The position numbers and the translations under genes are program-made. From Betaproteobacteria bacterium (GTDB lineage: Bacteria; Pseudomonadota; Gammaproteobacteria; Burkholderiales; SG8-41), in contig JACPTJ010000099.1 in assembly GCA_016192835.1 (NCBI GenBank), forward strand, positions 1 through 34,737: a stretch of DNA of 34,737 nucleotides, given 5' to 3'. Under the pieces are notes generated by a model that was given only the letters and a program-made list of their open reading frames with translations, was not told where the DNA came from and did no database searches. Positions 6,023 through 34,383 of the stretch are shown piece by piece (the stretch's first letter is position 1; the number at the start of each line of letters is the position of its first letter).

Positions 6023-7345
6023 TTATTTTGTCTCGGTTGCGTCAAACCATAACAGAACAGGCGGCTGGCCGACCGGGACCAGCACTTTTCCATCCGCTAC
6101 CCGGAGACGGCTTTCCTGCGCGCTGCGCCATAGCATTTCCTGGCCGGCAAAGCGAAACCCCCGGGGTACCGTCACGGCCTGCGTTGCGGGAACCTCCGCC
6201 CAGAGAATCTTGAAATGGCGTGAACCCTTGTTTCCGCCGCACATGACTCCCGCTCCCTTGAATGACTCGCACCCGGCGAGAGTTGCTCCGATCAGCCACT
6301 TCTGCACCTGGGCCATCGCCGCATAGGCAGGAAGATGTTCACCCGACGTGGTTACCATGCCGCTGCGCTCACTGTCCCACGAATAGTAGTAATAACGGCC
6401 CAGGCCGGCGGCAGCCCCGAGTATCAGTTGCTGCGTCATCTTGGCCGCAGATTCGGTGAGTGACCGAGTTGCCCCGGCGCCCGCCCCAGCGGGCAAGGAT
6501 TCGCCCGGTCCATAGACTTCCAAGCCCGTTTCCGTATTCCACAAAGGCAGGTTCTCGAGACCCTGACGTTTCATGACGGATCGAATCTCCAGGATCTGGC
6601 GCGCCAAATGGCTGGAATTTTCAGAATAAAAGTGGTAGCAAATTGCCTGAACATATTTCTTGCCGCCTGCCGCAAGAAACATCTCCAGCCGATTAGCGCC
6701 ACCCACGAATCCTGGCGTACACAACATTGCAGCGGCGGAAACATCGTCCAGCACTTTGCGCGCGACACGGGCCATTTCAACCATGTTAAAAATACTGCCC
6801 GTGTAAAAGCCAGGCCTGCCGCGATCCCCGGCGATATCGGAAAAATAGGGTTCATTCCAAAGTTCGTACGCAGCGATGCGGCTACCATAACGCTGCGCAA
6901 CGCGGCGTACATATTCTTCCCAGTGGCCCATCCGCACCGGCTCTGCTCCGCATCCCGGACCGTAACCGCACGGTTCATCCGGGCGGGCCGAAGCCCAGCG
7001 GGGCGTCGAGCCGAGGGTGTACAGCACCGTTGCCCGGTGCGCAGCAGCTTCATGCACGTAATAGTCGAGACGCTCGAATTCCCACACACCCGCCCGTGGC
7101 GCTATATCCGCCCAGCGTGTCACCGAATCCCACAGCCGGACTGTTCCGAAAGTCAACGGCGGCCACTGAGTTCGTACCGCCTTTTCCTGTGGCCGGAGAA
7201 CCAAGCGATGGAAATGCACGCCAAAATATGCGGGGGTTATTTCTTGTCCTCGCCCCGCAGTGGCGTCAAGGTATACATCCGCACATGCGAACTGTGTGAA
7301 CGCCATGAGGGCCGCAAGCAGCAGAATGTTCTGCCGGCGCTTCAT
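6023..7345 (-). CDS. Secreted clan GH-A glycoside hydrolase (GH39/GH5-like)
   Basis: A 440-residue protein with a signal peptide (positively charged MKRRQ, hydrophobic core, likely cleavage after ACA near residue 22). A TIM-barrel clan GH-A pattern is visible: AYELWNEPYF supplies the acid/base Glu at about 165, and LPLWNTETGL supplies a nucleophile Glu at about 272; LYTLGSTPRWAS and ICYHFYSE match other barrel strands. The ATG at 7345 overlaps the stop of the polymerase gene as ATGA, so the two are probably translationally coupled; the open frame extends further upstream but only inside the polymerase gene. It probably cleaves the eps polymer or its by-products in the periplasm, setting length or clearing blocked polymer. 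Exact GH family and bond specificity are not certain. Confidence 0.82.
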   Translation of the reverse strand: MKRRQNILLLAALMAFTQFACADVYLDATAGRGQEITPAYFGVHFHRLVLRPQEKAVRTQWPPLTFGTVRLWDSVTRWADIAPRAGVWEFERLDYYVHEAAAHRATVLYTLGSTPRWASARPDEPCGYGPGCGAEPVRMGHWEEYVRRVAQRYGSRIAAYELWNEPYFSDIAGDRGRPGFYTGSIFNMVEMARVARKVLDDVSAAAMLCTPGFVGGANRLEMFLAAGGKKYVQAICYHFYSENSSHLARQILEIRSVMKRQGLENLPLWNTETGLEVYGPGESLPAGAGAGATRSLTESAAKMTQQLILGAAAGLGRYYYYSWDSERSGMVTTSGEHLPAYAAMAQVQKWLIGATLAGCESFKGAGVMCGGNKGSRHFKILWAEVPATQAVTVPRGFRFAGQEMLWRSAQESRLRVADGKVLVPVGQPPVLLWFDATETK

Positions 7346-8703
7346 ACCAATGCTCCCCGACGTTGTTTGGCGTCGCCAGCTCCTCGTAAAACTGCATTTT
7401 TTCCCGCTACATAGGAAAGGGCGATTCCAAACAGGAAACTCTGCAAGTAATCGGTGCCGTAGGGAACGTAATAAGCCAATTGCATCACCATCAACACCAA
7501 CAGCACTTCTGCTTCCGTACCACCACGACCATCCCGGCAGATGCGGTAAAGACCGCCAACGACGTACCACGTTGCGGCAAGGAACGCCAACAAGCCCAGC
7601 AACCCGGTGTTGAAAAGCGTCTGGACATAAAGGTTGTGGGCCGTGTAGTTGATCTTGCGCGTCTCGCCGCGGCTGTCTTGCACATAGCGACTGGTATCCG
7701 AACCAAAGCTCTGGCCAATAACGATTGATCGTACGCCAGCCCCGTACCATTTCTTGACAATTTCGTGCCAACTGCTTAGCCGCTCACCGGTCGTATCCTG
7801 TCCAGCCAAGGCTCGCGCCGCGGACCCCTCCACCTGCTGTGCCAATCCAGACAGTTTGTCGCTGACTACCAAGGGTACCGCAGTGACGGCCACAATGAAG
7901 ACCAGGAGAAATACCTGACTCAATGTCGAACCACTCTTAGACCTCCCAAGCAGCAGTCGAGTCAGAACACCAACCAGCGCCGAAAGCCATACCGACCGGT
8001 GTTGGAGAACGACGACCATGCCAAATAGAACCGGCGAAAACAATCGCGCCGCGGTGAAGCCTTGCGATGCGCCCACATAAAAGAAACCCGCAACCAGGAC
8101 CTGGGCGATAACAAGTGTCTCGCCTGATTTAATCACCCGAATCGGGCCATCGACGTTATAGGTCCCTCCTGGCGGTAACAAACTGCTGATCGGAGTGTAG
8201 TACACCACCCAGCGGTAGGCAGAAAGGCAGATGAAAACCAGGGCAGTCAACGCGAGCGCGTTGAATACCAATCGCAAGCGCCGTTCGTCCATTGCAAAAC
8301 TCATCGCATACGAGCCGGCCACCATGAAATAGAAATAGGGGCGCACCTGGACGCCGGCAAGGGAACCGTAGGAAACCAGGCCGGTCAGCAGGCTCACGCA
8401 GATGAGCGCACAAAACAACATCCAAGCGCGATTCTTTTTCGGAAAGTCTGGTGCAAAAACCAATCGCAGCCCAACAACCAAAGCGATCAAGCCCAGGACT
8501 ATGTCCGGGTAAAAAAGATTGAACCAGAGGCTTACTCCCCCATAACCCATGGACAAGGCATCGATAATGAAAACGCCGACAATCAGTGCCGAACCAGCCC
8601 CGAACCTTGAATAACTCAGCACGATAATGGCCGGCACAAGCAAACCCAAAACGAACATCACGAGAAACGGGATGATAAGAAAAAGATCGGATAAATCCAT
8701 CAC
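7342..8703 (-). CDS. O-antigen ligase/polymerase (Wzy-type) membrane protein
   Basis: A 453-residue protein with at least ten hydrophobic helices spread along its length (for example near 8-30, 50-60, 75-90, 130-155, 375-400). A large polar loop between about residues 270 and 365 carries SSWHEIVKKW and TAHNLYVQTLFNTGLLGL; the latter matches the Wzy_C/O-antigen ligase signature HNxxLxxxxxxGxxG. The gene starts with GTG at 8703 or ATG at 8700, behind a strong AAGGAG ribosome site, immediately after the stop of the glycosyltransferase gene. Its stop overlaps the glycosidase start. It most likely polymerises flipped lipid-linked repeat units in the periplasm. Ligase activity cannot be excluded, but the eps setting favours polymerase. 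Confidence 0.87.
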   Translation of the reverse strand: MMDLSDLFLIIPFLVMFVLGLLVPAIIVLSYSRFGAGSALIVGVFIIDALSMGYGGVSLWFNLFYPDIVLGLIALVVGLRLVFAPDFPKKNRAWMLFCALICVSLLTGLVSYGSLAGVQVRPYFYFMVAGSYAMSFAMDERRLRLVFNALALTALVFICLSAYRWVVYYTPISSLLPPGGTYNVDGPIRVIKSGETLVIAQVLVAGFFYVGASQGFTAARLFSPVLFGMVVVLQHRSVWLSALVGVLTRLLLGRSKSGSTLSQVFLLVFIVAVTAVPLVVSDKLSGLAQQVEGSAARALAGQDTTGERLSSWHEIVKKWYGAGVRSIVIGQSFGSDTSRYVQDSRGETRKINYTAHNLYVQTLFNTGLLGLLAFLAATWYVVGGLYRICRDGRGGTEAEVLLVLMVMQLAYYVPYGTDYLQSFLFGIALSYVAGKNAVLRGAGDAKQRRGALV

Positions 8704-16920: not shown

Positions 16921-18474
16921 TCACGTTAGCTGTTCATTAAGGTATCTCTTGAACCATCGAGGAAGGGACCCCGTCTCCTGATTCGTATAGCGAAGGAGCA
17001 CTCTCGCCAGATCGGGACCAACCAGAAACCGGATGCATAGCAGCCCGCCGCCGAGTGCGAGCGCCGCGCCCAACGTCAGCGCGAAAGCCAGGCGCAGCTG
17101 CGCAAGGATGCCCAGCATCTGTAACCCATGATCGGCCGCGAACAAGGTAGCGGCTACGGCGAGCGAAAACGGCAACGTCCCCCGCAGCGGCGCCAATGCG
17201 GCATGTGCGGGGACGTCCAGGACACGTAGCAATACCGACGTTATCCACACCGCTCGCACCAGGTAGACGCCGAAAACGCTCCAGGCTAGCACCTCCAGCG
17301 AAAAGCGCGCACTGACAAAGATCGCACCGATTAGCAGCAAGGCGATCCAGAACTGGACTTTGAGTTCCTTGCCGACCATGCCGCACCCCCACAGGATCGG
17401 CCCGGCGATTGCCATTGCCGCGTGCACCGGCATGGCCAGTGCCAGCGGCAATAGTAACGGTATAGCGGCGAGCCACTTCTGACCGTAGAGCGCCACCACT
17501 ACCGTTTCGGACAATACGCCGGCGGCGATGAAGGTGGGCAACGATACCAGCAGTACCAGGTTCAACGCCAACAGATAGGCGCGGCCGAGTGCTGCCGCAT
17601 CGTCCTGAACGCGGGCGCTTGCTGAAAACAGCACCTGCTGCAGGGTGACCACCATATGGTTGGCCGGCGTGCGCATGAGATTGTACGACACTGAATAAAA
17701 ACCCAGCGCCTGTACCCCTAACAGCCTGCCCACTAGCAGGTTATCCAGATTCTCGCTTACCCAGTTGGACAGGTTGGTGAGCAGAACGCGCCCGGCGAAA
17801 CTCTGCAGCGCCCTGCCTTCGGCCACCAGCAACGGCCGGAGAGTATGGGGTGCCGCGCGATAGAGCAACACCGCTTCCATCAGATATTGTGTCCCCAGCG
17901 CGCCGATCAGGCTCCACACACCCGCACCGGCCAACGCCAGGCCGATGCCAACCAGGACGAACCCCGTGACATAACTCGCTACCTGCGCGATCTGTACTGT
18001 GCGAAATTCGAGCCGGCGTTTGAGCAGACTCAGGGGTACGACGCTGAAGCTCTGGATGACAACGCTGAGCGCGATTCCGCGCAGTGGCCAGGTAAGCGCG
18101 GGGTCGCCGAAAAATTGCGCCAACAATGGCGCGACTAGTGCGAGCAGCAGGGCAAGCCCGGCTGATGCCGCCACGATCCGGGTAAATGCCACGCGTATAT
18201 CCGCTTCGGCGAGAGCCTTTTTTTGAACCAGTGCCGGGCCCAAACCCATTTCTGAAACAATGCTAACCACGCCCACGCTCACCAGGCAGACGCCGAACAT
18301 GCCGTACGGCACGGGTCCGAGCAATCGCGCCAGGACGATCTGAGCAATGAATTGCGCCAACACACGCGCAGCGACGCCAAGGTAGTTCCATTTCGCCGCC
18401 GCGAGAACGCGCTCGGAGAGCGTTCCCGGCCGAGGTCCGGCGGGCGTGTCCATGCGATCTGTGTCGACCGGCAT
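16921..18474 (-). CDS. Wzx-type lipopolysaccharide/oligosaccharide flippase
   Basis: A 517-residue polytopic protein of the MOP superfamily with about 12-14 hydrophobic segments. The N-terminus AAKWNYLGVAARVLAQFIAQ, then LARLLGPVPYGMFGVCLV and EMGLGPALVQKKAL, is the usual start of the polysaccharide-synthesis (RfbX/WzxC) subfamily; NWVSENLDNLLVGRLLG and YSVSYNLMRTPANHM match the conserved middle. It moves undecaprenyl-diphosphate-linked repeat units across the inner membrane. Start ATG lies three bases after the FkbM stop. The last 40 residues are cytoplasmic and basic. A 167-base gap follows with a possible promoter for the next gene group. Confidence 0.9.
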   Translation of the reverse strand: MPVDTDRMDTPAGPRPGTLSERVLAAAKWNYLGVAARVLAQFIAQIVLARLLGPVPYGMFGVCLVSVGVVSIVSEMGLGPALVQKKALAEADIRVAFTRIVAASAGLALLLALVAPLLAQFFGDPALTWPLRGIALSVVIQSFSVVPLSLLKRRLEFRTVQIAQVASYVTGFVLVGIGLALAGAGVWSLIGALGTQYLMEAVLLYRAAPHTLRPLLVAEGRALQSFAGRVLLTNLSNWVSENLDNLLVGRLLGVQALGFYSVSYNLMRTPANHMVVTLQQVLFSASARVQDDAAALGRAYLLALNLVLLVSLPTFIAAGVLSETVVVALYGQKWLAAIPLLLPLALAMPVHAAMAIAGPILWGCGMVGKELKVQFWIALLLIGAIFVSARFSLEVLAWSVFGVYLVRAVWITSVLLRVLDVPAHAALAPLRGTLPFSLAVAATLFAADHGLQMLGILAQLRLAFALTLGAALALGGGLLCIRFLVGPDLARVLLRYTNQETGSLPRWFKRYLNEQLT

Positions 18475-21360: not shown

Positions 21361-22047
21361 TCAGACGCCGAAGCGACCGGCGATGCGCGCGCGGTCTTTC
21401 TCGCTCATGCCAGCCAACATGGCTTCCAGGAATTCCTGCTGGAGCCGGTAGGCGCCATTTTCGTCGCGATCAATCGACGAAACACGCACCAGCATCCCGT
21501 CGGCGACTTTGCCGGTCAGCCCATAACGCAATTGCGCGAGCTTGTGAGGAAGCCCAAAGAACGTGATTTTGTCGCCCACGATTACCCAATAAGTGATCGG
21601 CTCGCTGCGTGCGCGTTGTTGTGCCAGCAGCCGCGTTACCGGCAGTTTCCCGTATTGGGTGACCAACTCCCCGGCCACCGTTTTCAATAAATCGAAACCC
21701 TGCGCTGGATAGCAGACTTCCGGGCGGTGGATGTTCATGCCTTCGTTCTGGTCGTCGCTGTACGCGATCGACAGCATGATGTGCTGGCCTTTGCCGTTGA
21801 TGTAGGTCCGCGCCAGCGTCTGGTTGTAGATTTTCTCGAGCTTTGCCAGGAGTTCGGGACTGGGCAACAACGGTACGATCGATGTGTCGATCTTCCATTC
21901 ACCGAACGATTCCGGAATCATCGTTTCCAGATTGACCTTGTCAGCGTCGCTGGTAACTTTCTTGGTCGGAGTCATGACATACGCGAGCCCCGCACCCGCA
22001 AACATCAGCAGCCCGATCAGCAGCATCCTGCGGTCGAGCGTCATCAT
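21361..22047 (-). CDS. epsI: EpsI, exosortase B-associated protein
   Basis: A 228-residue protein with one N-terminal membrane anchor (about residues 8-25) and an extracytoplasmic EpsI domain. The diagnostic motif is NIHRPEVCYPAQGF (Cys about 112), and LSIAYSDDQNEGM precedes it; PITYWVIVGD and LVRVSSIDRDENGAY follow. In many exosortases EpsI is fused to the C-terminus; here it is separate, as in exosortase B loci. Its function is not established in the family; it is thought to work with exosortase and surface polysaccharide. Its ATG overlaps the xrtB stop (ATGA), so the two are coupled. The gene ends 26 bases before gmd. Confidence 0.9.
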   Translation of the reverse strand: MMTLDRRMLLIGLLMFAGAGLAYVMTPTKKVTSDADKVNLETMIPESFGEWKIDTSIVPLLPSPELLAKLEKIYNQTLARTYINGKGQHIMLSIAYSDDQNEGMNIHRPEVCYPAQGFDLLKTVAGELVTQYGKLPVTRLLAQQRARSEPITYWVIVGDKITFFGLPHKLAQLRYGLTGKVADGMLVRVSSIDRDENGAYRLQQEFLEAMLAGMSEKDRARIAGRFGV

Positions 22048-22925
22048 ACCGTCGCTCTCCCACGCCAGCGCACGCTGGCGAGCCGAATCACCCCATCCAG
22101 GCCCAACAGCATCAGCAGTGCCACCATGAATAACAACATGCCGGCAAAACTGTGCGTAAAGCCCTGTCCCGTTTCATCACCCAGATGATACGTGACGAGC
22201 ACCAATATCATTACGCGCACGATATTGGCGCCAAAAGCGATCGGCAGGATACTGGCGATAATCAGGCCGTTGTGCAGCCAGCTCGGGTAGCGCATCAGGC
22301 GCAGATACACGAGCCCGAGCGCGGACAGGCTGAACATCGAGTTGAGCCCGGAACAGGCATCCGCCACGAGCAGCTGGTATTGACCCACGATCAGCACCAC
22401 GCCATTGCGGGCGATCGGGTAACCCGCGGCGTAAAGCAGCTGCTCGGCGATCTCCGAGACGTGTTGTTTTAACGGCACCGTCAGTGCGTCGACGAAAAAA
22501 CCCGGCAACGGAACCAGGAAGACGATCAAAATGAGCGAAAACCACAGCGCGCGCAGGCCCTCCCAGCCGCGCGTGGCGAGCAGCACGCCGGCGAGTATCG
22601 GGGCCAGCGCGCCGACCTCGAACAGAATGATGCCTTGGGAACGGCCCAATGCATAAAGCAGCAGTCCGAACACCAGTAATGAGTAGCCTGGCCCCGGCGC
22701 CGTGCGAGCCGTCGCAATGAGCAGTGCTTTGCGTTCTTCCCAGATGAACCAGACGATGACGGCAAGAATGATGGGGCCGTGAGCGTGCTCTTCCGACTGC
22801 CAGATCGTCGTGGCGAGATCATAGAATGTCGGGAGGTAGAGAACCAGCACTCCGGCGGCCACCGGCAGCCATTCAAGCCAGTCGGCGCCGCCCCGGCCTG
22901 GCTTGGCGTCGGGCACAATGGACAT
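22044..22925 (-). CDS. xrtB: Exosortase B (EpsH family)
   Basis: A 293-residue integral membrane cysteine protease/transpeptidase with about eight transmembrane helices. The catalytic triad of exosortases is visible: Cys191 in VADACSGLNSMFSL, Arg237 in GANIVRVMILV, and His258 in GQGFTHSFAGM. EEHAHGPIILAVIVW and LVPLPGFFVDALTVPLKQ are typical of the EpsH family. Exosortases cleave and transfer PEP-CTERM proteins at the outer face of the inner membrane. Position between epsG and epsI, with EpsI not fused, matches the B type. ATG begins four bases after the epsG stop. No PEP-CTERM protein is encoded in this window, so its substrate is elsewhere. Confidence 0.93.
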   Translation of the reverse strand: MSIVPDAKPGRGGADWLEWLPVAAGVLVLYLPTFYDLATTIWQSEEHAHGPIILAVIVWFIWEERKALLIATARTAPGPGYSLLVFGLLLYALGRSQGIILFEVGALAPILAGVLLATRGWEGLRALWFSLILIVFLVPLPGFFVDALTVPLKQHVSEIAEQLLYAAGYPIARNGVVLIVGQYQLLVADACSGLNSMFSLSALGLVYLRLMRYPSWLHNGLIIASILPIAFGANIVRVMILVLVTYHLGDETGQGFTHSFAGMLLFMVALLMLLGLDGVIRLASVRWRGRATV

Positions 22926-22929
22926 GTGG

Positions 22930-23817
22930 TCAGAACTCGTTGAGTACGGCGCCGACGACCGTGGCGCTGCCTTGGGACAGACTGTCCGTAATACGACGTA
23001 CCTGCGAGATGCGCGTGGTATTCTTGTGTATCACGACCAAGGCTGCGCCGGCGCACACAGCGATAGTTTGTGCGTCGGAGCATTCGGCCGCAGCCGGCGT
23101 GTCGAGCAGGATCACGTCGAATTCCGTAGCGAGTTCTCCCAGCAGTTGCGGGAACAGCGGCCGCGCGAGGAGTTCCAGTGGGTTCGGGGGCAAGGCGCCG
23201 GCGGGCAACACCGAAAGGTCGAGCAATGAGGGGATGCGCTGGATCATTTCCGGCCCGCCGCGGCCGGAGAGTATTGCCGAGAGGCCACCGCGGTTGTCGA
23301 GGCCGAAGAGTTCGTGCTGGCAGGGATTGCGCATGTCGGTGTCGATCAGCAGCGTATGCTCGCCGAGCTGCGAGAATACTACGGCGAGATTCGCAGCGAT
23401 GAAGCTGCGCCCCTCATTACGCGCGGCACTGACAACGGCGAGCGCTCTGCGGGCGGGGTCGGTATCGAACCAGCGCACCATGAGCTGGCTACGAAGGGCG
23501 CGCAGCGCTTCCACCTGCGGGCTAAAGGGCGTATAGGCGGCCACCAGATCTTCGCTGACTTTACTGTGCCCGTGCACCAGGTATGGGTAATCGAACTGGC
23601 GTGAGATTGCGAAATCGATGTCGGCCTGAGTGATCAGGCCGAGTTGCGTTGCGGCGTTGCCGAAGCGCAAACCCTGCTCGCGCTGCAGGCGCAGGATGCG
23701 CTCTGCATCTTCCGGCGTAAGCTTTCCCGCGTCGATCAGAATGGCCCCGATCGAGCGCTCGCCGCGCCCGGATACGACGCTGCCGGCAGCGGCTGGAATA
23801 ATGTTGTTCTGTGCCAT
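22930..23817 (-). CDS. epsG: EpsG, chain-length regulation ATPase (BY-kinase-like)
   Basis: A 295-residue cytoplasmic protein. Residues about 20-82 form a type II secretion GspE N-domain-like module (IGAILIDAGKLTPEDAERI; QLGLITQADIDFA). The ATPase has a Walker A region AARNEGRS (131-138) with Arg where most P-loops have Lys and Asn where most relatives have Gly, Walker A' LLIDTDMRNP, and Walker B VILLDTPAA. There is no C-terminal tyrosine cluster, unlike classical BY kinases. It is known as the cytoplasmic partner of EpsF in controlling chain length. ATG at 23817 lies nine bases after the epsF stop. Confidence 0.92.
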   Translation of the reverse strand: MAQNNIIPAAAGSVVSGRGERSIGAILIDAGKLTPEDAERILRLQREQGLRFGNAATQLGLITQADIDFAISRQFDYPYLVHGHSKVSEDLVAAYTPFSPQVEALRALRSQLMVRWFDTDPARRALAVVSAARNEGRSFIAANLAVVFSQLGEHTLLIDTDMRNPCQHELFGLDNRGGLSAILSGRGGPEMIQRIPSLLDLSVLPAGALPPNPLELLARPLFPQLLGELATEFDVILLDTPAAAECSDAQTIAVCAGAALVVIHKNTTRISQVRRITDSLSQGSATVVGAVLNEF

Positions 23818-23826
23818 CGATTCGAT

Positions 23827-25227
23827 TTACCGCGCCATCAGGGCTGATTTACGGCTCCAGAATGCCAGTCGTATAGGCCCACGGCGCTGCTGCTTTTCGA
23901 TCACGCCGAGAATGGGTAACTGCAGCATCCCGCCAAGATCGTCAACCGAGCGAATGCGCTGATCGAACATCTCGAGCACCAACGCTGCGCCGACGCCGAG
24001 CAGCGTGCCGACGAAAACAGACACCAGGGTGTTGAGCAGCGGTTTCGGGAACGAAGGCTCGGTCGGTTCGGCCGCCGGCGTGAGCACCGATACATTGGTC
24101 TGCGTCGATTGGCTCTCCAGGCTGGTTTGGTTGAACCGCTGCGACACGGCTTCGTAGGCCTTATGCGCCGCGTCCACGTCCCGCATAAGCACCGCAACTT
24201 CGTCGCGATGATGCTTGAGCTCGAGCAGTTTTTTCTTCTGGGCTTCGATTGCGGCCTTGAGTTCGGCTTCCTTATCCCTGCCGACCGCTCGCGAGGTGGA
24301 AAAACCGCTGGTAATGTGCCGCGTCTCCACTTCCAGTTTCCGCTTCAGCGTGGCGATTTCGGATTCCGCGCGTTGGTACTGAGGGTGGTTCCTGCCCAGG
24401 TTGCCGGCAAGTTCCTGCAACTTTGCTTCCTGCCGGGCGAGCTCGACTTTGAGGGCTCCGATCGTCGGGTTTTGCACAACCTCGGGCAGCGTGTCCGAAG
24501 CAGCGCCAGACCGCTGCTTGCTCTGTGCATCGGAGGTCTGTCCCTGAACGACGGTCAGCTGCGTGGAGAGTTCGTTGAGCTTGGCGGTTTCGTTGTCCAG
24601 CCGTTCGTCGATGGCGACGATGCCGTGCTCCTGCTGGTATGCGGAAAGTTTCGCCTGCGCTTTTTCCAAGTTGTCCCGTAGCGACTTGCCCTGTTCGCCG
24701 AACCACTTGGCATACTGCCGCGCCGGCTCGACTTTCAATTCGACATTGGTTTCAATATAGGCCTGCGTGAACGCATTGGCGACGGCGGCGGCGAAGCCGG
24801 GATCGACGGCCTTGTAACTGATGCTGATGACGTTGCTCTCGCGCGCAGGCTTGACGTCCAGTTTCGTCTGCAGCACATCAGCAAGCCACACCTCCAGCTT
24901 GCCTTTGCCTTTGGTCGCTTCCATCCATTGTTGTCTGACCGTTGGATTTGCGTCGAGCTTGAGCAGCTTGACGACCTTCTGCGCGACGCGGTCGCTTTGA
25001 ATGATGTCTGTCTGAGTGGCCATGTAACCGGGCGCGGCCATTCCCGGAAGCATCATGCCAATGACGGGGTCGGGCGACTTGACGTCGATTACCACCGAGG
25101 TCGTGGCGGTGTATTGCTTTGGCAGCACCAGGCTCACCCCGAGCGTGGCCGTCACGGTGCCGAGCAACACCAGTAACACCAGTTTGTAGCGCGCCCGGAG
25201 AATCAGCAGGAACTGTTGCAGGTTCAT
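23827..25227 (-). CDS. epsF: EpsF, polysaccharide co-polymerase (Wzz-type chain-length determinant)
   Basis: A 466-residue inner-membrane protein: first helix about 14-34, a long periplasmic alpha-helical hairpin (coiled coil about 175-225 and 260-370), and a second helix about 400-422, followed by a cytoplasmic tail FDQRIRSVDDLGGMLQLPIL. The Wzz domain starts YTATTSVVIDVKSPDPV, and the proline-rich region PSFPKPLLNTLVSVFVGTLLG before the second helix is characteristic. It sets polymer length together with EpsG and contacts the exporter EpsE. ATG at 25227 has GGGAGGG about five bases upstream, ten bases after the epsE stop. Confidence 0.94.
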   Translation of the reverse strand: MNLQQFLLILRARYKLVLLVLLGTVTATLGVSLVLPKQYTATTSVVIDVKSPDPVIGMMLPGMAAPGYMATQTDIIQSDRVAQKVVKLLKLDANPTVRQQWMEATKGKGKLEVWLADVLQTKLDVKPARESNVISISYKAVDPGFAAAVANAFTQAYIETNVELKVEPARQYAKWFGEQGKSLRDNLEKAQAKLSAYQQEHGIVAIDERLDNETAKLNELSTQLTVVQGQTSDAQSKQRSGAASDTLPEVVQNPTIGALKVELARQEAKLQELAGNLGRNHPQYQRAESEIATLKRKLEVETRHITSGFSTSRAVGRDKEAELKAAIEAQKKKLLELKHHRDEVAVLMRDVDAAHKAYEAVSQRFNQTSLESQSTQTNVSVLTPAAEPTEPSFPKPLLNTLVSVFVGTLLGVGAALVLEMFDQRIRSVDDLGGMLQLPILGVIEKQQRRGPIRLAFWSRKSALMAR

Positions 25228-25237
25228 CGCGCCCTCC

Positions 25238-27220
25238 CTAGAAAATACTTTCGCGCACGTAAATCACGTCATCAGGCTGCACCGGGTCGTCGAAGCCGGG
25301 TCTCAGGATTGCAACCTTGCCGTCGGCGCCGCGGCGGTGCAGACGCAGCCAGCGTTCGGTGCCGCGTAGGGTCGGGCCGCCGCCCTGGGCCAGGGCCTGC
25401 CGGACCGTCATGTTACGCTCGACACGGTACGAGCCCGGGCGCTGCACTTCGCCGTAGATGTAGAAAATCGGCGCGCGCTGAACGTAAATCACATCGCCGC
25501 CCGCCACCACGAGATCGTCCTGCAGCCGGTTCCGATCAGCGAACATGCCGGCAATGTCAATCTCTTTGCGGAACGGTTTGCCTTCGCGCGTGCCTGTCAG
25601 AACGGCAACGTCTGCACCCGTGGCAACGGTGATGCCCCCGGCGATGGCGATCATCTCCGAGACGCGGACGTTGAGGGTATCCAGTGGAAAACGTCCGGGG
25701 CGGTTTACTTGCCCCAGTACGGCAACCTGGTAGCCGCGAATCTGCTGCAGCACGATGTTGACCTGCGGCTGCTGGATGAAACCGCCGTCTTTCAGCGCCT
25801 TGGCGATGGTCTGCTCGGCGGCCGGAATCGTAAAGCCACCGACCTTGACTTCCCCTATCAGAGGAAAACTGATTGTGCCGTTTTCGGTCACCCGCGCTTC
25901 AACGGTGAGATCGGGGTTCTGGAACACCACTATCTTAATCATGTCGCCCGCGCCAAGCTGGTATTCGATCTGCCTTGCCAGTTCGGGTTTATTCTGTTGC
26001 TCCTCACGGCTCACAGCAGGCACTTGGGCCTGCAATTGAGCCGGCTCTGTCCTTCGCGGCGAGACCTCTGGCGTCGCCGGAACTGGCGCTGACGCTTCGG
26101 ACGGTTGTTCTGCAGCGCTCGCAATGCTTGGTGGCGGGACCTCCGGCGCTGATGGAACTGGCGCTGTAGCCCGGGTCGGCTGTTCTCCCGCGCTCGCAAC
26201 AATCGCATCGGGCCGATAGGTGGCAATCCGGGCATGGGCACCACGGAACTTCCGCAACAATGCCTTGGCAGCCTGCACCGCCTCTGCGCGGGTATCCCAA
26301 TAGCCGACCCGCAGCGCGTATGCCGCGCCGCGCTTATCGATCCTCGCATGCGGCTCGCCTGCTACCCGCGCGAGCGATTCCTGCAAAACGGCCACGGATG
26401 TCCCTGACAGCAACTGGACGGAATGGTAATCCTGCCCCGCCACGAGTTGCGGTGGGCGAGGCATACCGGGCAGCTGGGCCTGCGATTGCTCAGGCTCTGC
26501 CCGTAGCGGCGAAACCTCAGCGGTGGGGCGGCGCTCGGCGTCGCGACGGGATTCAGCCAGGCGCAGCGCCTCAGTCTCAGCCTTTTCCCGAAGTACGGCT
26601 TGTGCCATCGCTTCACGTTCCGCTGCCACGCGCTCCCGCGCGGCAGCCTCGGCTTGCGCTTCAGCCTGTTGCCGTATCGTGGCTTCCCTCAGCGCTCGCG
26701 CTTCCGCCGCCGAGCGCTCTTGCGCTGCAGCCTCCGCTCGCCGCTCCGCTTCAGCGCGTTCTGCGGCAAGCTTTGCCGCCTCACGCTCCGCTTGCACTGT
26801 GGTTTCTCGCGTCCCCCCTCCCGGCGCCCGTGCCCCTGTTAATGGGTGTGGCACCGCAGCTATCGGCGGTTGCTCTCCGGCGCCGGCAACGATCGCATCG
26901 GGCTGATAGGGAGCGATCCGGGTATGTGCCCCACGGAACTTCGGCAACAAGACCTTGGCGGCTTGCACCGCCTCGTCGCGGCTTTCCCAATAGCCGAGCC
27001 GCAGCGTGTATTCGGCGCCGCGTTTTTCGATTCTTGCGTAAGGTTGGTCCGCAACCAGCGCGAGCGATTCCTGCAAAACGGCAGCCGATGTTCCTGACAA
27101 CAACTGGACGGAATAATAATCCTGCCCCACCACGAGCGGGGCACCCGAGGACTCGCGCGGGATCGCCGCTAACGCGACAACCGCGAGTACGAGGATACCG
27201 AATAGTCGCTGCGAACTCAC
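25238..27220 (-). CDS. epsE: EpsE-type polysaccharide export protein fused to two SPOR domains
   Basis: A 660-residue protein, far longer than usual EpsE (about 265). Order: signal peptide (about 1-27, no lipobox Cys); SPOR-like domain 1 (29-118, QDYYSVQLLSGTS ... LRLGYWESRDEAVQAA); Ala/Glu/Arg-rich coiled coil (about 141-231); SPOR-like domain 2 (259-348, nearly the same sequence); Pro/Ala-rich linker (350-410); Wza-type polysaccharide export domain (about 418-510, YQLGAGDMIKIVVFQNPDL and VLGQVNRPGRFPLDTL); two SLBB-like repeats to the end (IYGEVQRPGSYRVERNMTV). The start GTG at 27220 has GGAG seven bases upstream and is followed directly by the signal peptide; the open frame to 27388 only overlaps epsD. 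SPOR domains bind denuded peptidoglycan, suggesting wall anchoring or septal targeting of the exporter (inference). Confidence 0.9.
   Translation of the reverse strand: MSSQRLFGILVLAVVALAAIPRESSGAPLVVGQDYYSVQLLSGTSAAVLQESLALVADQPYARIEKRGAEYTLRLGYWESRDEAVQAAKVLLPKFRGAHTRIAPYQPDAIVAGAGEQPPIAAVPHPLTGARAPGGGTRETTVQAEREAAKLAAERAEAERRAEAAAQERSAAEARALREATIRQQAEAQAEAAARERVAAEREAMAQAVLREKAETEALRLAESRRDAERRPTAEVSPLRAEPEQSQAQLPGMPRPPQLVAGQDYHSVQLLSGTSVAVLQESLARVAGEPHARIDKRGAAYALRVGYWDTRAEAVQAAKALLRKFRGAHARIATYRPDAIVASAGEQPTRATAPVPSAPEVPPPSIASAAEQPSEASAPVPATPEVSPRRTEPAQLQAQVPAVSREEQQNKPELARQIEYQLGAGDMIKIVVFQNPDLTVEARVTENGTISFPLIGEVKVGGFTIPAAEQTIAKALKDGGFIQQPQVNIVLQQIRGYQVAVLGQVNRPGRFPLDTLNVRVSEMIAIAGGITVATGADVAVLTGTREGKPFRKEIDIAGMFADRNRLQDDLVVAGGDVIYVQRAPIFYIYGEVQRPGSYRVERNMTVRQALAQGGGPTLRGTERWLRLHRRGADGKVAILRPGFDDPVQPDDVIYVRESIF
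26177..27136 (-). repeat. Pair of direct repeats encoding the two SPOR domains
   Basis: The segments 26177-26446 and 26867-27136 (270 bases each) are strongly similar at both DNA and protein level and lie 690 bases apart. The separation is a multiple of three, so recombination between them would delete one SPOR domain and the coiled coil in frame. Confidence 0.85.
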
Positions 27221-27254: not shown

Positions 27255-28211
27255 TCATCTGAGCCCGCGGATGCCTTTCTCGAGGTTCGGTGCAGGCGCT
27301 TGATCAGGTTTGGGCGGCTCCGCGTTGGCGGCGGGGCGGGACGCGGCCGCAGGGGCGGCCGACGCGGTGCCGGCAAACTCGCCAACATATTCGATTTTGG
27401 CTTTTTCCCTGAGCTGCTTCATCTCGCTTGCGATCGCTGCAGCCGAGCGCTGGTTGAACAGGAACTGCTGTACCCGCGGGAGGGCGGTCGCCTCATCCAC
27501 CGGAGAGGAAACCGTGGCCACTACGCGCACGACGTACAGACCACCGCTGCCCTCGATCGCCTGGATTTCGCCGCTTTTCATCGCCTGCAGCTTCGGCAGC
27601 AGCTCCAGCGGAATCTGCTCCGCAGCGCGCACGCCGCGGTTCTCGGCGAACTTGACCTGTTTGGATTTCAGCCATTCCGAGATTTCCTGCAAGGAACGAG
27701 CCCTGGACGCCTGCTCCTTCAGCTGGGCGCTGAGACCTGCCACCGGCTGAACGGCGATCTCCTCGAGGTTGAACAAGCGCCGCTGGGCGAACAGTTCCGG
27801 ATGTTCCGCATAGTATTTCCTGGCTTCATCGGTCGTCGGCCTCGACTGAGCCGACGCGATTTGCTCCAGATAGGAGCGGGCAAGAATATCGTTCTTGGCA
27901 GCCTCGAGCGCCTGCACGGTGTTGGGCGAGCGGTCGAGCTTCTTCTCGATCGCCTGCTGCTTGGCGAGTTGCTGGTCGATCAGCCTTTCGAGGATCTGGC
28001 GCTTCGCCTGCGCCGCGACTCCCGGGTTGACGTTTTCACGGGCGAGAATGCCGTTGATCTGGTACACAGTGATCTCGTGGGAATTGACTTTGGCGGCCAC
28101 CTGCGTGGAAGCGTTCTTGTCCTCGGTTTTCCCGCAACCGGCAGCGACTGCGACGGCAAGCATCAGTAGAGCGACGCACACGCGAAAATGGGGTTTCATG
28201 TGTTTGGACAT
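27255..28211 (-). CDS. epsD: EpsD, PpiC/SurA-like peptidyl-prolyl isomerase lipoprotein
   Basis: A 318-residue protein with a lipoprotein signal peptide (LAVAVAAGC, lipid Cys about 26). An N-terminal SurA-like helical chaperone part follows (VAAKVNSHEITVYQINGIL; ILERLIDQQLAKQQAIEKKL), then a degenerate PpiC-type rotamase region (FNLEEIAVQPVAGL ... KFAENRGVRAAEQIPLELL ... SGEIQAIEGSGGLYVVRVV). The C-terminal 45 residues are Ala/Pro-rich and low in complexity. It probably assists folding of outer-membrane partners such as EpsL. Two ATGs 12 bases apart (28211 and 28199) are possible; AGGA sits just before the first. It stops 34 bases before the epsE start. Confidence 0.9.
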   Translation of the reverse strand: MSKHMKPHFRVCVALLMLAVAVAAGCGKTEDKNASTQVAAKVNSHEITVYQINGILARENVNPGVAAQAKRQILERLIDQQLAKQQAIEKKLDRSPNTVQALEAAKNDILARSYLEQIASAQSRPTTDEARKYYAEHPELFAQRRLFNLEEIAVQPVAGLSAQLKEQASRARSLQEISEWLKSKQVKFAENRGVRAAEQIPLELLPKLQAMKSGEIQAIEGSGGLYVVRVVATVSSPVDEATALPRVQQFLFNQRSAAAIASEMKQLREKAKIEYVGEFAGTASAAPAAASRPAANAEPPKPDQAPAPNLEKGIRGLR

Positions 28212-28335: not shown

Positions 28336-29607
28336 TCAAAACATCAGGGAAGCACTGACGACCGCGATGGTGTCGTCGAACTCGAAGGCGCCGTAATTGG
28401 AAGAGCGCCGGTCGCGCTGCAGATTGGCGCTGAAGGTAACGTAGCGCAGTGGCGTCCAGTCTGCGCCGAGTCCCGCACTGCACGCAGTATCACCGCGTAA
28501 CGGACCGGGATTCGCGATGATAGGCCCGCGGTGATCACGCTGGGTACAATCGAGGCGCATGCGCAGCGCGGTCTTGGCGGTGGCCTGCCAGGTCGGCGCA
28601 AAAGACAGGGTGTCGCTCACAGTGTAGCTGGAAAGCGCTTCCCACCAGGGACCGAGCTCCCGCCGGGCGGAAATAGCAAACCGCAGCTTGGCGGTGGGTG
28701 TCCAGGAATAGTCGAGATTGCCGGCCATGCCGGAAAAATCGCGCTGGGCGAAATGCTCGTGGCGGCGCTCAATCCACGCCACGCGGCCAGTCAGTGTGGA
28801 CTTCCCGCTCGCCAGCCACGTCGACTGCAGTTCGCTCTCCTGAAGTCGGAACCCATCGTCAATAAGGTTGACGGGATCGAGCGGCTGGTTGAGGGTGCTG
28901 CCCTTGCTCGATCGTCTGGCGGCGGTAACCGAGCTCCCGGACGCGGCGACATATCTTAGACCGGCATCGGCGCCGGTTGAGCGGGAGCTGATTTGGGCCA
29001 GAAACGCCTGGGTGTATTTGGTCTCGCTGTCAAACACGCCCAGCAGCACGTGCCAGCCGCCGGTCAGCCGGCCGTCGAGATCGAAGCGTCGACTATCAGT
29101 ATTGCTGACGTTGCGCTGGAACCCCCGGAAATCCGTGAACGGGACCAGGGTCTGCCGGTGATCCATGCTGAGCGTGCCGCCCAGGCGCGGTGTCAGGTGC
29201 CACAGCCACGCCCCGCGATAATCCAGCGCATCAAAATCGAGAAAAGTGAAGCTGTTGAAACGAGTAGTCGTCTTGGTAACGTCGAGCTGAAAGCGTTGCT
29301 GCGCGAACGATTTGTCGATGCGCAGCCCCAGATAGGCAGTATTGATGCGATCGTCCTTGTTGGGCTTGCCCACTGCGGTCAGCGGATTGACGGATCCCGG
29401 AAGACGGAACAGGTTCGCATCCCACATGACGGATCCGCCCAGTACCACCGCGAGTTTGAGAGGAAGAGACTCTCCCTGCTGCGCAGCGGCAGATTGGACC
29501 AGCATCCCGGCCACCAGCCCCAACGCAACTTTCCGAATCAACCTTCGCTGCCGGATGATCCAAACGGATTGCCGGCGTGGACCCAGCTGGAATGCGCGTT
29601 CGGCCAT
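28336..29607 (-). CDS. epsL: EpsL, outer-membrane beta-barrel of the eps locus
   Basis: A 423-residue protein with a long basic N-terminus, a signal peptide around residues 20-42 (LIRKVALGLVAGMLVQSAAAQ), then alternating amphipathic strands and the terminal Phe (AVVSASLMF) expected of a BAM-inserted barrel. Conserved EpsL features include VLGGSVMWDANLFRLP near the start and LDVTKTTTRFNSFTFLDFDALDYRGAW. Its role is not proven in the family; a polymer secretion pore or surface attachment is assumed. The start at 29607 is uncertain because a predicted promoter would place transcription at that codon; a shorter start such as TTG at 29541 is conceivable. A 124-base gap separates it from epsD, with no clear promoter recognised. 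Confidence 0.9.
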   Translation of the reverse strand: MAERAFQLGPRRQSVWIIRQRRLIRKVALGLVAGMLVQSAAAQQGESLPLKLAVVLGGSVMWDANLFRLPGSVNPLTAVGKPNKDDRINTAYLGLRIDKSFAQQRFQLDVTKTTTRFNSFTFLDFDALDYRGAWLWHLTPRLGGTLSMDHRQTLVPFTDFRGFQRNVSNTDSRRFDLDGRLTGGWHVLLGVFDSETKYTQAFLAQISSRSTGADAGLRYVAASGSSVTAARRSSKGSTLNQPLDPVNLIDDGFRLQESELQSTWLASGKSTLTGRVAWIERRHEHFAQRDFSGMAGNLDYSWTPTAKLRFAISARRELGPWWEALSSYTVSDTLSFAPTWQATAKTALRMRLDCTQRDHRGPIIANPGPLRGDTACSAGLGADWTPLRYVTFSANLQRDRRSSNYGAFEFDDTIAVVSASLMF

Positions 29608-32040: not shown

Positions 32041-34265
32041 TCAGCTCTCGGTGTCGAGGAAGCTGCGCAGGCGCTCGGAGCGCGAAGGATGGCGCAGCTT
32101 GCGCAGCGCCTTCGCCTCGATCTGGCGGATGCGTTCGCGCGTGACGTCGAATTGCTTGCCGACTTCCTCGAGCGTGTGGTCGGTGTTCATTTCGATGCCG
32201 AAGCGCATGCGCAGCACTTTCGCCTCCCGCGGCGTGAGCGTATCGAGCACGTCCTTGGTCGCATCGCGCAGACTCGCGTAGACCGCGGAATCCGCCGGCG
32301 CCATGGTCGCCTGGTCCTCGATAAAGTCTCCGAGATGCGAATCGTCGTCGTCGCCGATCGGCGTTTCCATCGAAATCGGCTCTTTGGAAATCTTGTCTCC
32401 TCGGGCATCTCCATTTTCTCGGCGAGCAGCGCGGGGTCCGGTTCCTGCCCGGTTTCCTGCAGGATCTGGCGCGAAATCCGGTTCATCTTGTTGATGGTCT
32501 CGATCATGTGCACCGGGATGCGGATCGTTCTTGCCTGGTCGGCGATCGAGCGCGTGATCGCCTGGCGGATCCACCACGTTGCGTAAGTCGAGAATTTATA
32601 GCCGCGGCGGTATTCGAACTTGTCGACCGCCTTCATCAGGCCGATGTTGCCTTCCTGGATCAGGTCGAGGAATTGCAGGCCCCGGTTGGTGTACTTCTTG
32701 GCGATCGAAATCACCAGCCGCAGGTTGGCTTCCGTCATCTCGCGCTTGGCGCGGCGCGCTTTCGCCTCGCCGGTCGACATCTGGCGGTTGATTTCCTTCA
32801 GGTCCTTGATCGGAATGCCGACCTGCTTCTGCAGATCGACCAGTTTCTGCTGCTGCTCGACGATCGCCGGCTCGAAGCGCTGGAGCGCCTCGCTCCACGG
32901 CTTGCGCGCCGCGATTTCGTTGGCGGTCCAGCGCAGGTTGCATTCCTTGCCGGGGAATTCCTTGATGAAGTGCGGGCGCGGCATCTTGGCCTTGTTCACA
33001 TACAGATCCATGATCTCGCGCTCGTAGCTGCGCACGCGGTCGACCAGCCTGCGCAGGCCATCGCACAGCGCCTCGACCTGTTTCGCCCCAAAACGGATGT
33101 TCATCAATTCGTTCGAGATCTGGTCACGCGCCTGCAGGTAAGCCTTGCTGCGCGGGCCATTCTTGGCGAGCGCGCGCAGCATCTTGTTGTAGAGATTGCG
33201 GATCACCGCGAAACGCTTGAGCGCATCTGCCTTGAGGCGCAGCAGGTCGGCGGTTTGCACCGCGGCCTGTTCTTCCTCGCTCATCTCTTCTTCTTCGATG
33301 TCTTCCTCTTCGCCCTCTTCCTCTTCCTCGGCAAGCTCCCGCGCGAGCTCGTCGGCGGTCGGATCGACCAGGCCATCGACCACCTCGTCGACGCGGATTT
33401 CGTCCTTTTCGATGCGCTCCGCGAGCGAGAGGATTTCGGCGATCGTGGTCGGGCATGCAGAAATCGCCTGGATCATGTGCTTCAGGCCGTCCTCGATGCG
33501 CTTCGCGATTTCGATTTCGCCTTCGCGCGTCAGCAGCTCGACCGAGCCCATCTCCCGCATATACATGCGTACCGGGTCGGTGGTGCGGCCGAATTCGGAA
33601 TCGACGGTCGAGAGCGCGGCCTCGGCCTCCTCGACCACGTCCAGGTCGGCGACCGCCGGGGTCGCATCCGACATCAGCAGCGTCTCGGCATCGGGCGCCT
33701 CGTCGTAGACGTTGATGCCCATGTCGTTAATCATGCTGATGATGTTCTCGATCTGCTCGGCATCCAGCATGTCGTCCAGCAGATGATCGTTGATCTCGGC
33801 GTAAGTGAGGTAGCCGCGCTCCTTGCCGAGCACGATCAGGTTCTTGAGGCGCACGCGGCGCGCTTCGGCATCACGCGGTGACAGTTCCTTGCGCGCGAAC
33901 ACCCTGACCAGCGCCTTCTCTTTGGCGATCAGCCCGCGGGTCGAGCGCGGCTTGCCTTTCAACTTCGCCTGAACGCGCGCGATCCTCTCCTTGAGCAACG
34001 CCTTCTTCAGCGTTGCCTTGTCCATCTTCTGCGGCTGCCTGACCGGCTTCAGCGGGAGCGGCTTCGGCAGCGCTTTCTCGACGCGCTTATCCTTGCCGGC
34101 GAGCCTGGCCTTCAGCGCAGCGCGCGCCTTCGCCGCTGCCCTCGCTTTGAAACGCGCCTTGAGCCGCCTCCCCCTGGCCGCCAGCCGCTGGCGGGCGAGT
34201 TTGGCCTTCGCGGCCGCTCTCCTGCGTGCTGCAGACCTGGCCTTCGCTTTCCTGAGGTTTGCCAT
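32041..34265 (-). CDS. rpoD: RNA polymerase primary sigma factor RpoD, interrupted by a frameshift
   Basis: Sigma-70 in two frames. The 5' frame from ATG 34265 encodes a Lys/Ala/Arg-rich N-terminal extension (about 100 residues), region 1.1 ([21 protein letters not shown]), region 1.2 ([22 protein letters not shown]), an acidic non-conserved part, region 2 ([39 protein letters not shown], residues split by the core-binding and -10 recognition helices) and region 3.0 up to EKMEMPEE at 32397. The 3' frame resumes at [20 protein letters not shown] (32394) and carries region 4 ([26 protein letters not shown]). Compared with the canonical KIRKVL-type link, 16 bases appear missing at 32395-32396. 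Uncorrected, the 5' frame reads on to 32187 and loses region 4. As RpoD is essential, a sequencing or assembly error is likely. Confidence 0.95.
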
Positions 34266-34307
34266 CTCGCCGTTCCCGCGTGAGTTCAAGCGCCAAAAAA
34301 GGTGCGG

Positions 34308-34313
34308 ATTATA
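34308..34313 (-). promoter_or_regulatory. -10 element upstream of rpoD
   Basis: A perfect TATAAT on the minus strand in the 118-base dnaG-rpoD gap would give a leader of about 36 bases to the ATG at 34265. No good -35 hexamer is visible. rpoD is probably also read through from dnaG. Confidence 0.45.
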
Positions 34314-34383
34314 CCTTGATTCGACCCCGTTCAGAGCCGAGACCTGAATCTGGGGTTCGTTACGGGACACTTCAACCTTCGAT

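Follow-up and report, generated by a model that had tools for sequence, protein, structure and literature searches.

OPX exporters of class 1 carry an acylated N-terminal cysteine, according to the available part of PMC9601211, and those of class 3 in PMC9603273 are, as we understand its accessible sections, a truncated kind with Poly_export and SLBB domains and no part spanning the outer membrane. How exopolysaccharide channels cross and hold peptidoglycan, and what sets the site of polymer release, are in our judgement poorly known. SPOR domains are described in the available text of PMC6895207 as recognising glycan strands that lack stem peptides, a form concentrated at septa. In the same text, the SPOR domain of RlpA grips the glycan mostly via main-chain contacts, with the side chains of Q270, R302, R309 and R311 facing the glycan and Q270 contacting its lactyl and N-acetyl groups. 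LspD, the secretin of the Legionella T2SS, has an N-terminal SPOR domain, as stated in the accessible part of PMC9239104, which cites another paper. The accessible parts of PMC6113214 and PMC7901474 treat SPOR and polysaccharide subjects separately, and in those of the OPX papers PMC9603273 and PMC9601211 the letters 'spor' belong to spore or sporulation words at every place covered (12 of 12 and 12 of 13, respectively). No report of a SPOR domain on an exopolysaccharide exporter was found in full-text searches that mostly covered papers outside subscription journals. The original prediction for the gene described here held that a coupling of exopolysaccharide export to the cell wall was not known to be described; as far as searched, this stands for SPOR on exopolysaccharide exporters, but LspD, as presented in that partial source, is a precedent on another kind of channel.

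The window is a 34,737-nt stretch (contig JACPTJ010000099.1, assembly GCA_016192835.1, Betaproteobacteria bacterium), and its epsE gene encodes a 660-aa protein that runs from a signal peptide through a SPOR domain, a predicted 91-residue helix, a second SPOR domain and a Pro-rich linker to a complete EpsE export domain (Table 1). This order had been predicted, and the frame is open throughout. Likewise as predicted, the export domain is limited to about the last 240 residues, the NCBIfam EpsE model (TIGR03028) matching residues 419–660.

Table 1. Features of the window on and around the epsE–SPOR fusion gene.
Feature	Position	Strand	Basis and remarks
epsE–SPOR fusion gene	25238..27220	(-)	660 aa, GTG start, single open frame
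Signal peptide	27140..27220	(-)	about residues 1–27, by eye; without cysteine
SPOR domain 1	26888..27139	(-)	residues 28–111; Pfam, predicted fold, profile A3
Ala/Glu/Arg-rich predicted helix	26534..26806	(-)	residues 139–229, single-sequence model
SPOR domain 2	26198..26449	(-)	residues 258–341; Pfam SPOR search of genome, profile A3
Pro/Ala-rich linker	25976..26185	(-)	about residues 346–415; internal 73-nt repeat
EpsE export domain (Poly_export + SLBB_2 + SLBB)	25241..25966	(-)	Pfam, NCBIfam
epsL, outer-membrane component of the eps system	28336..29607	(-)	TIGR03014
epsD, periplasmic PPIase, directly upstream of epsE	27255..28211	(-)	TIGR02925
epsF, chain-length/co-polymerase partner	23827..25227	(-)	TIGR03017, 658 bits
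epsG, tyrosine kinase	22930..23817	(-)	TIGR03029
Exosortase B (XrtB)	22044..22925	(-)	TIGR03113
epsI, B type	21361..22047	(-)	NF045609
Wzx-type flippase	16921..18474	(-)	MOP flippase models, below their cut-offs
Wzy/O-antigen-ligase type protein	7342..8703	(-)	PF04932

The eps operon that holds this gene also encodes EpsF, EpsG and an exosortase. Family models farther along the locus identify a GDP-mannose dehydratase, a GDP-fucose synthase and glycosyltransferases, and we read the whole, from these matches, as a Wzx/Wzy-dependent, XrtB-linked exopolysaccharide system with an exosortase. Residues 23–74 of EpsG also match an MshE-related cyclic di-GMP-binding domain, at 38.6 bits against a cut-off of 38.

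The gap between the epsD stop and the epsE start is 34 nt, epsF follows downstream, and a GGAG motif stands 7 nt 5′ of the GTG start. No second signal peptide ahead of the export domain was seen in the three forward frames of nt 1001–1300 of the gene. Because the frame is open throughout and no second signal peptide was seen, the reading of the SPOR and export parts as two separate genes is rejected; as the sequence stands, the two parts are one gene. The whole 660-aa protein contains no cysteine and therefore, by its sequence, is not a lipoprotein.

An error of assembly or gene calling, in which a bcsC-like 5′ end was wrongly joined to epsE, would also produce such a gene. The source genome is a fragmented assembly (586 contigs, 85.8% complete, 5.65% contaminated), and rpoD on the same contig is broken across two frames. 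However, the fusion gene occupies the usual place between epsD and epsF, it is a single open frame with a plausible ribosome site and no second signal peptide seen, and its matching parts differ from the host bcsC at 21–25% of DNA positions, too much for that gene simply to have been misplaced. We therefore reject such an artefact as very improbable. The rpoD split lies at 32041–34370 (-) of the window, where 32187–34370 encodes regions 1.1–2 and part of region 3 and the overlapping frame 32041–32577 (-) encodes the remainder of region 3 together with region 4; this is probably an assembly error, since rpoD should be an essential gene.

In the export domain, Pfam placed Poly_export at residues 418–491, SLBB_2 at 498–580 and SLBB at 585–636, and TIGR03028 scored 361.5 bits (cut-off 262.65) with its complete model, 1–239. 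Residues 401–615 match the solved Wza in sequence. The Pfam search did not report Wza_C at E values up to 10, and the EpsE model reaches the last residue, 660. The 'Wza-type' label given originally thus holds for the Poly_export and SLBB part but not beyond it, there being neither a reported Wza_C nor a cysteine. Both class 1 OPX traits, the Wza_C helix that spans the outer membrane and the acylated N-terminal cysteine, are absent from EpsE, which fits the truncated OPX kind with Poly_export and SLBB and no outer-membrane-spanning part. We infer that EpsL is a separate barrel or pore partner of EpsE; a beta-barrel porin model matched it below cut-off.

The SPOR assignment was first examined at the level of family models. 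Pfam SPOR (PF05036) scored 33.5 bits on EpsE against a cut-off of 21, in two stretches of which the better was at residues 34–91, and in a search of the genome each copy passed the cut-off singly (29.4 bits at 26948–27121 and 26.5 bits at 26258–26431). The original assignment is borne out by these scores, with which the fold and a conserved glutamine agree; the description of the two domains as nearly identical is not, the copies being only 75% identical. Genome-wide, SPOR was over cut-off at six places, these being contigs C13, C446, C441 and C583 and the two EpsE copies, and below it on C408 (20.6 bits) and C513 (13.8 bits). By sequence, we read the C13 protein as DedD-like, that of C446 as RlpA and that of C408 as an ExeA-like ATPase.

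A structural model of SPOR copy 1, built on an alignment of nine window and named-genome sequences (A4), had a mean pLDDT of 77.3, a pTM of 0.64 and the topology b-a-b-b-a-b. The first three ranks in VIA-align were all SPOR domains: 1x60 (Z 9.3), 6i05 (Z 9.1, rmsd 1.9 over 70) and 6i09 (Z 9.0), the last being the RlpA SPOR domain with denuded glycan. DedD (Z 6.9) and DamX (Z 6.3) ranked lower, and unrelated folds started at Z 6.9. Foldseek with the same model returned nothing at E of 0.001 or less, its best match being an SbtB protein (E 2.7e-3) and its second CwlC. The RNP-like b-a-b-b-a-b topology appeared, at low confidence, for both copies in a full-length model computed from the single sequence, which was used for the helix and, cautiously, for topology, as its mean pLDDT was 46, residues 364–660 were below 50 and it was poor outside the helix. 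The structure prediction proposed as a check thus gave a SPOR fold for copy 1, with solved SPOR domains as the best matches (Z 9.0–9.3), and for copy 2 the same topology at low confidence. Fourth in the VIA-align ranking (Z 8.4), amid SPOR domains, was PDB 6ozd, residues 81–166, the Burkholderia exported protein BPSS2145, whose title does not mention SPOR.

Q12, R36, R40, R47 and R74 are invariant in all 11 exporter SPOR rows of profile A3, both EpsE copies included. The match to RlpA starts with model residue 8 on residue 266, so that Q12 corresponds to Q270 if there is no gap between, and HMMER also aligns Q12 with a glutamine of DamX, the sole SPOR domain among solved sequences matched by the profile, weakly (E 0.019). 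By eye, R47 fits RlpA R311 if the glycine after it is matched. With simple matching on that glycine, the position of R309 is occupied by T or A, so a basic patch would need other arginines; two invariant ones, R36 and R40, lie close by. Of three more remote rows from genome G373, that of BcsC retains the glutamine, whereas BcsB has E and a solo SPOR protein has H at this position, so the glutamine contact does not extend across the wider group. A glycan-binding surface on the EpsE SPOR domains is a plausible prediction from these alignments.

Between the SPOR domains, the original prediction placed a coiled coil of about 90 residues. An Ala/Glu/Arg-rich helix at residues 139–229 was indeed predicted, confidently and as one helix, by the model without alignment; a charged single helix would, however, be as possible there as a coiled coil. 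Its DNA is 77% identical over 267 nt to repeat genes on contigs C319 and C464 of the same genome. Chance similarity between such compositions was rejected, since the match scored 203 bits whereas 100 codon shuffles averaged 30.2 bits and never exceeded 46.4, and the repeat genes are likely relatives of the helix. The genes on C319 (L134) and C464 (L135) are very large and Ala/Glu/Arg-rich, with a C-terminal membrane helix by eye.

The front of epsE resembles a second gene of the host. Contig C583, recovered by searching the genome with the EpsE protein, carries BcsB, a GH8 endoglucanase of BcsZ type and a 1020-aa BcsC, named from its C-terminal model, with one N-terminal SPOR domain. At the DNA level, epsE 21–356 is 75% identical to bcsC 15–350 over 337 nt (E 4e-61), a match that covers most of the signal peptide, from about residue 7, and epsE 778–1050 is 79% identical to bcsC 82–353 (E 2e-65). 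The two SPOR copies are 83% identical to each other over 270 nt. Because of the bcsC match at the 5′ end and the helix match to the C319/C464 repeat genes, epsE appears to be a mosaic drawn from three sources. A tree was built from 14 SPOR rows, which are short, and has 5 of 11 inner branches open and two long end branches; in it the EpsE copies group together (96/93) inside a group with the BcsC proteins of the host and of L102 (99/99). L102, Betaproteobacteria bacterium RIFCSPLOWO2_12_FULL_62_13, has a BcsC with SPOR and, it appears, an unfused 270-aa EpsE as well.

Between the EpsE SPOR copies and BcsC, dS is 0.67–0.77. Between host and L102, dS is 0.20 for bcsC and 0.23 for bcsZ but 0.77 for the EpsE export domains, from which the bcs and eps loci seem to differ in history. 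The much closer bcsC and bcsZ (host C583 against L102) hint that one locus was transferred horizontally. Recent copying of the present-day bcsC was considered and rejected, since EpsE SPOR and BcsC are separated by far more than the 0.20 between the bcsC genes of relatives; by this comparison the fusion is not very recent, or it came from an unsampled relative.

We next asked how widely exporters carry SPOR. Within the family, 26 of 74 genomes had a TIGR03028 match at E up to 1e-3, with 12 over cut-off; in the order sample, 91 of 399 had one at E up to 1e-50, with 78 over cut-off. Profile A3 at E up to 1e-4 found SPOR in 4 of the 399 genomes of the order sample, and among its 91 EpsE-bearing genomes a SPOR-EpsE was present in the host genome only, in searches that score the top candidates per genome and may miss distant copies. 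In the order sample this result also bears on the combination of SPOR with Poly_export/SLBB, a search for which had been proposed at the outset. At EpsE and OPX loci (L018–L047, L056–L084 and some others; frames of at least 80 aa), SPOR was found only in the fusion gene (as L019) and in the BcsB of G373 (in L143). Some other EpsE genes lie in long frames, of up to 613 aa, that were suspected of being fusions. A subset of 12 such regions was translated (L085–L094, L100 and L101, of which L093 lacks the C-terminal end), and these were rejected as fusions, each showing by eye an ordinary EpsE that has a signal peptide and lies behind unrelated upstream sequence.

The other three A3 genomes were G202 (BcsC), G334 (a SPOR-TPR protein in a bcs-like locus, by eye) and G373, which has a 1587-aa BcsC, a BcsB and a 132-aa solo protein with A3-type SPOR. 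Of 379 genomes, 36 had a BCSC_C match, at 38 places in total, and 3 of the 38 bear A3-type SPOR. SPOR is no fixed part of the low-scoring BcsC group, there being no match in the loci of G246, G276, G427 (a stretch with an ambiguous letter) and G154. In named genomes, seven SPOR loci were confirmed among 56 stretches. BcsC with SPOR occurs in L102 and L106, the L106 protein being that of G202, with its barrel matched, and L103, from the cultured, non-pathogenic Jeongeupia naejangsanensis, has a SPOR-TPR protein without a barrel-model match. PelB (PF24604 barrel) with a SPOR-type front occurs in L104, L107 and L108, and L105 is by eye nearly identical to L104. These four loci, with SPOR or SPOR-like PelB-type proteins in pel-like clusters, come from Comamonadaceae, Sterolibacterium and Rhodoferax assemblies; the named genera with SPOR exporters we take to be betaproteobacteria, except where the record itself states so. 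Pfam SPOR was over cut-off in the host BcsC, L102, L103, L107, the G334 protein and the G373 BcsC, and under the cut-off of 21 in L104 (19.2), L105 (20.6), L108 (16.1), L106 (14.7) and the G373 solo protein (20.0). In a class sample of 321 genomes, there were two weak matches outside the order (G601 and G737).

Two G373 proteins extend the range of carriers. Its BcsB (L099:422-2926 (-), also L143) has an N-terminal SPOR-like domain by A3 (E 8.5e-12) without a Pfam SPOR report, which would give the cellulose machine a second SPOR-bearing component. The solo protein (L097:1618-2013 (-)) is small and secreted, contains little beyond its SPOR-like domain, and adjoins lpxC-, ddl- and murC-like genes by eye. 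The fusion is thus part of a broader observation than originally made, as BcsC, BcsB and PelB of other genomes bear a module of this kind. In the genomes sampled, exporters carry SPOR sporadically and recurrently, and it does not appear to be fixed in any one exporter family.

That the fusion occurs in one of 91 EpsE-bearing genomes of the order sample, and that Ala/Glu/Arg repeat sequence is abundant in the host genome, could reflect neutral accretion, a chance fusion tolerated by export in which SPOR has no role. We regard this as unlikely. Copy 1 against copy 2 gives a dN/dS of 0.21 at dS 0.56, and the five pairs that include an EpsE SPOR copy give pairwise dN/dS of 0.21–0.26 at dS 0.56–0.77, values that blend constraint from before and after the fusion. 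Furthermore, Q12 and the arginines are kept in both copies.

The best explanation, to which we assign a probability of roughly two in three, is that EpsE is a periplasmic OPX subunit with a peptidoglycan-anchoring front end taken from a bcsC-like gene. The bcsC-like 5′ end, with its signal peptide and SPOR domain, would have been captured by epsE, with duplication of SPOR and acquisition of the long helix. After secretion, the export domain would form a ring between EpsF and EpsL, an octamer if it assembles as Wza does, and the SPOR pairs (16 domains per octamer) would attach to peptide-free glycan strands, thereby fastening the ring to the wall at the point where the channel crosses it. The tether would consist of the helix, up to 13.7 nm long (91 residues × 0.15 nm), and flexible linkers. 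With neither a lipid anchor nor an outer-membrane helix, EpsE must get its hold in the envelope from partners such as EpsF and EpsL, perhaps together with SPOR. The repeated appearance of the module on EpsE, BcsC, BcsB and PelB argues for a function in export. The architecture, the DNA homology to bcsC, the predicted SPOR fold, the conserved glutamine and the low dN/dS are computed results, and a link to the wall would be the natural reading of a SPOR domain on EpsE. The original suggestion, that the exporter is held to peptidoglycan or placed at the septum, thus receives partial support. Against anchoring, the fusion is known from one assembly only and nearly all other EpsE found have no SPOR.

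The same recurrence on EpsE, BcsC and PelB would be seen if SPOR gripped the exported polysaccharide instead of peptidoglycan, as a glycan-feeding module ahead of the channel, and the predominance of main-chain contacts in SPOR-RlpA, as given in the partial source above, would allow it. However, these exporters handle presumably different polymers, for which a common ligand such as the wall fits better, and in RlpA, according to that source, the conserved glutamine makes its contacts with lactyl and N-acetyl groups. We find this quite improbable.

If peptidoglycan anchoring is correct, export enriched at septa or young poles is a possible consequence, provided that peptide-free glycan is mainly septal in the host; the expectation comes from the bacteria studied so far, in which division sites are richest in such strands. 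Whether this targeting, with polymer deposited at the septum or new pole, is itself the selected function is a separate proposal that we hold to be possible, at somewhat under even odds. It is consistent with the septal enrichment of the SPOR ligand in the available text of PMC6895207 and with the position of the G373 solo protein near lpxC-, ddl- and murC-like genes, named by eye. However, the models matched by the eps genes include no division family except a MinD-type ATPase on EpsG, below cut-off, and LspD, in the part of its source available, shows SPOR serving an envelope machine as such. More doubtful, and offered tentatively, is the wider proposal that a SPOR module moved among the Wzx/Wzy-OPX, BcsC, BcsB and PelB machines of betaproteobacteria and confines secretion to peptide-free wall at division sites and young poles.

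The recurrence of SPOR on EpsE, BcsC, BcsB and PelB is, as far as we searched, undescribed. The SPOR-EpsE itself is a single case from a fragmentary genome, but the pattern across exporters is testable: BcsC, PelB and EpsE proteins with and without SPOR form a natural set for asking where polymer emerges.

Compared with EpsE of XrtB/PEP-CTERM-type exopolysaccharide loci (TIGR03028), the protein has the same export domain and the same operon of EpsD, EpsF, EpsG, XrtB, EpsI and EpsL. In the other translated EpsE proteins the signal peptide comes soon before the export domain (270 aa in total in L136), whereas here about 390 residues intervene. Wza, of class 1 OPX, matches residues 401–615, but EpsE has no reported Wza_C and no cysteine for lipidation. 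The SPOR-BcsC proteins of the host and other genomes are like EpsE in having a signal peptide, a SPOR domain and a Pro-rich linker before the exporter, and unlike it in having one SPOR and no long helix, followed by TPR and a beta-barrel. The SPOR domains of RlpA, CwlC, DedD and DamX share the fold of the copy 1 model and the glutamine, but belong to wall enzymes or division proteins and not to exporters. LspD, as described in the accessible part of its source, resembles the fusion in bearing SPOR at the N terminus of an outer-membrane channel protein, a likeness by description, but it serves protein export through an unrelated channel. Envelope machines with wall-binding modules are thus already known, and what is new, as far as searched, is SPOR on an OPX exporter.
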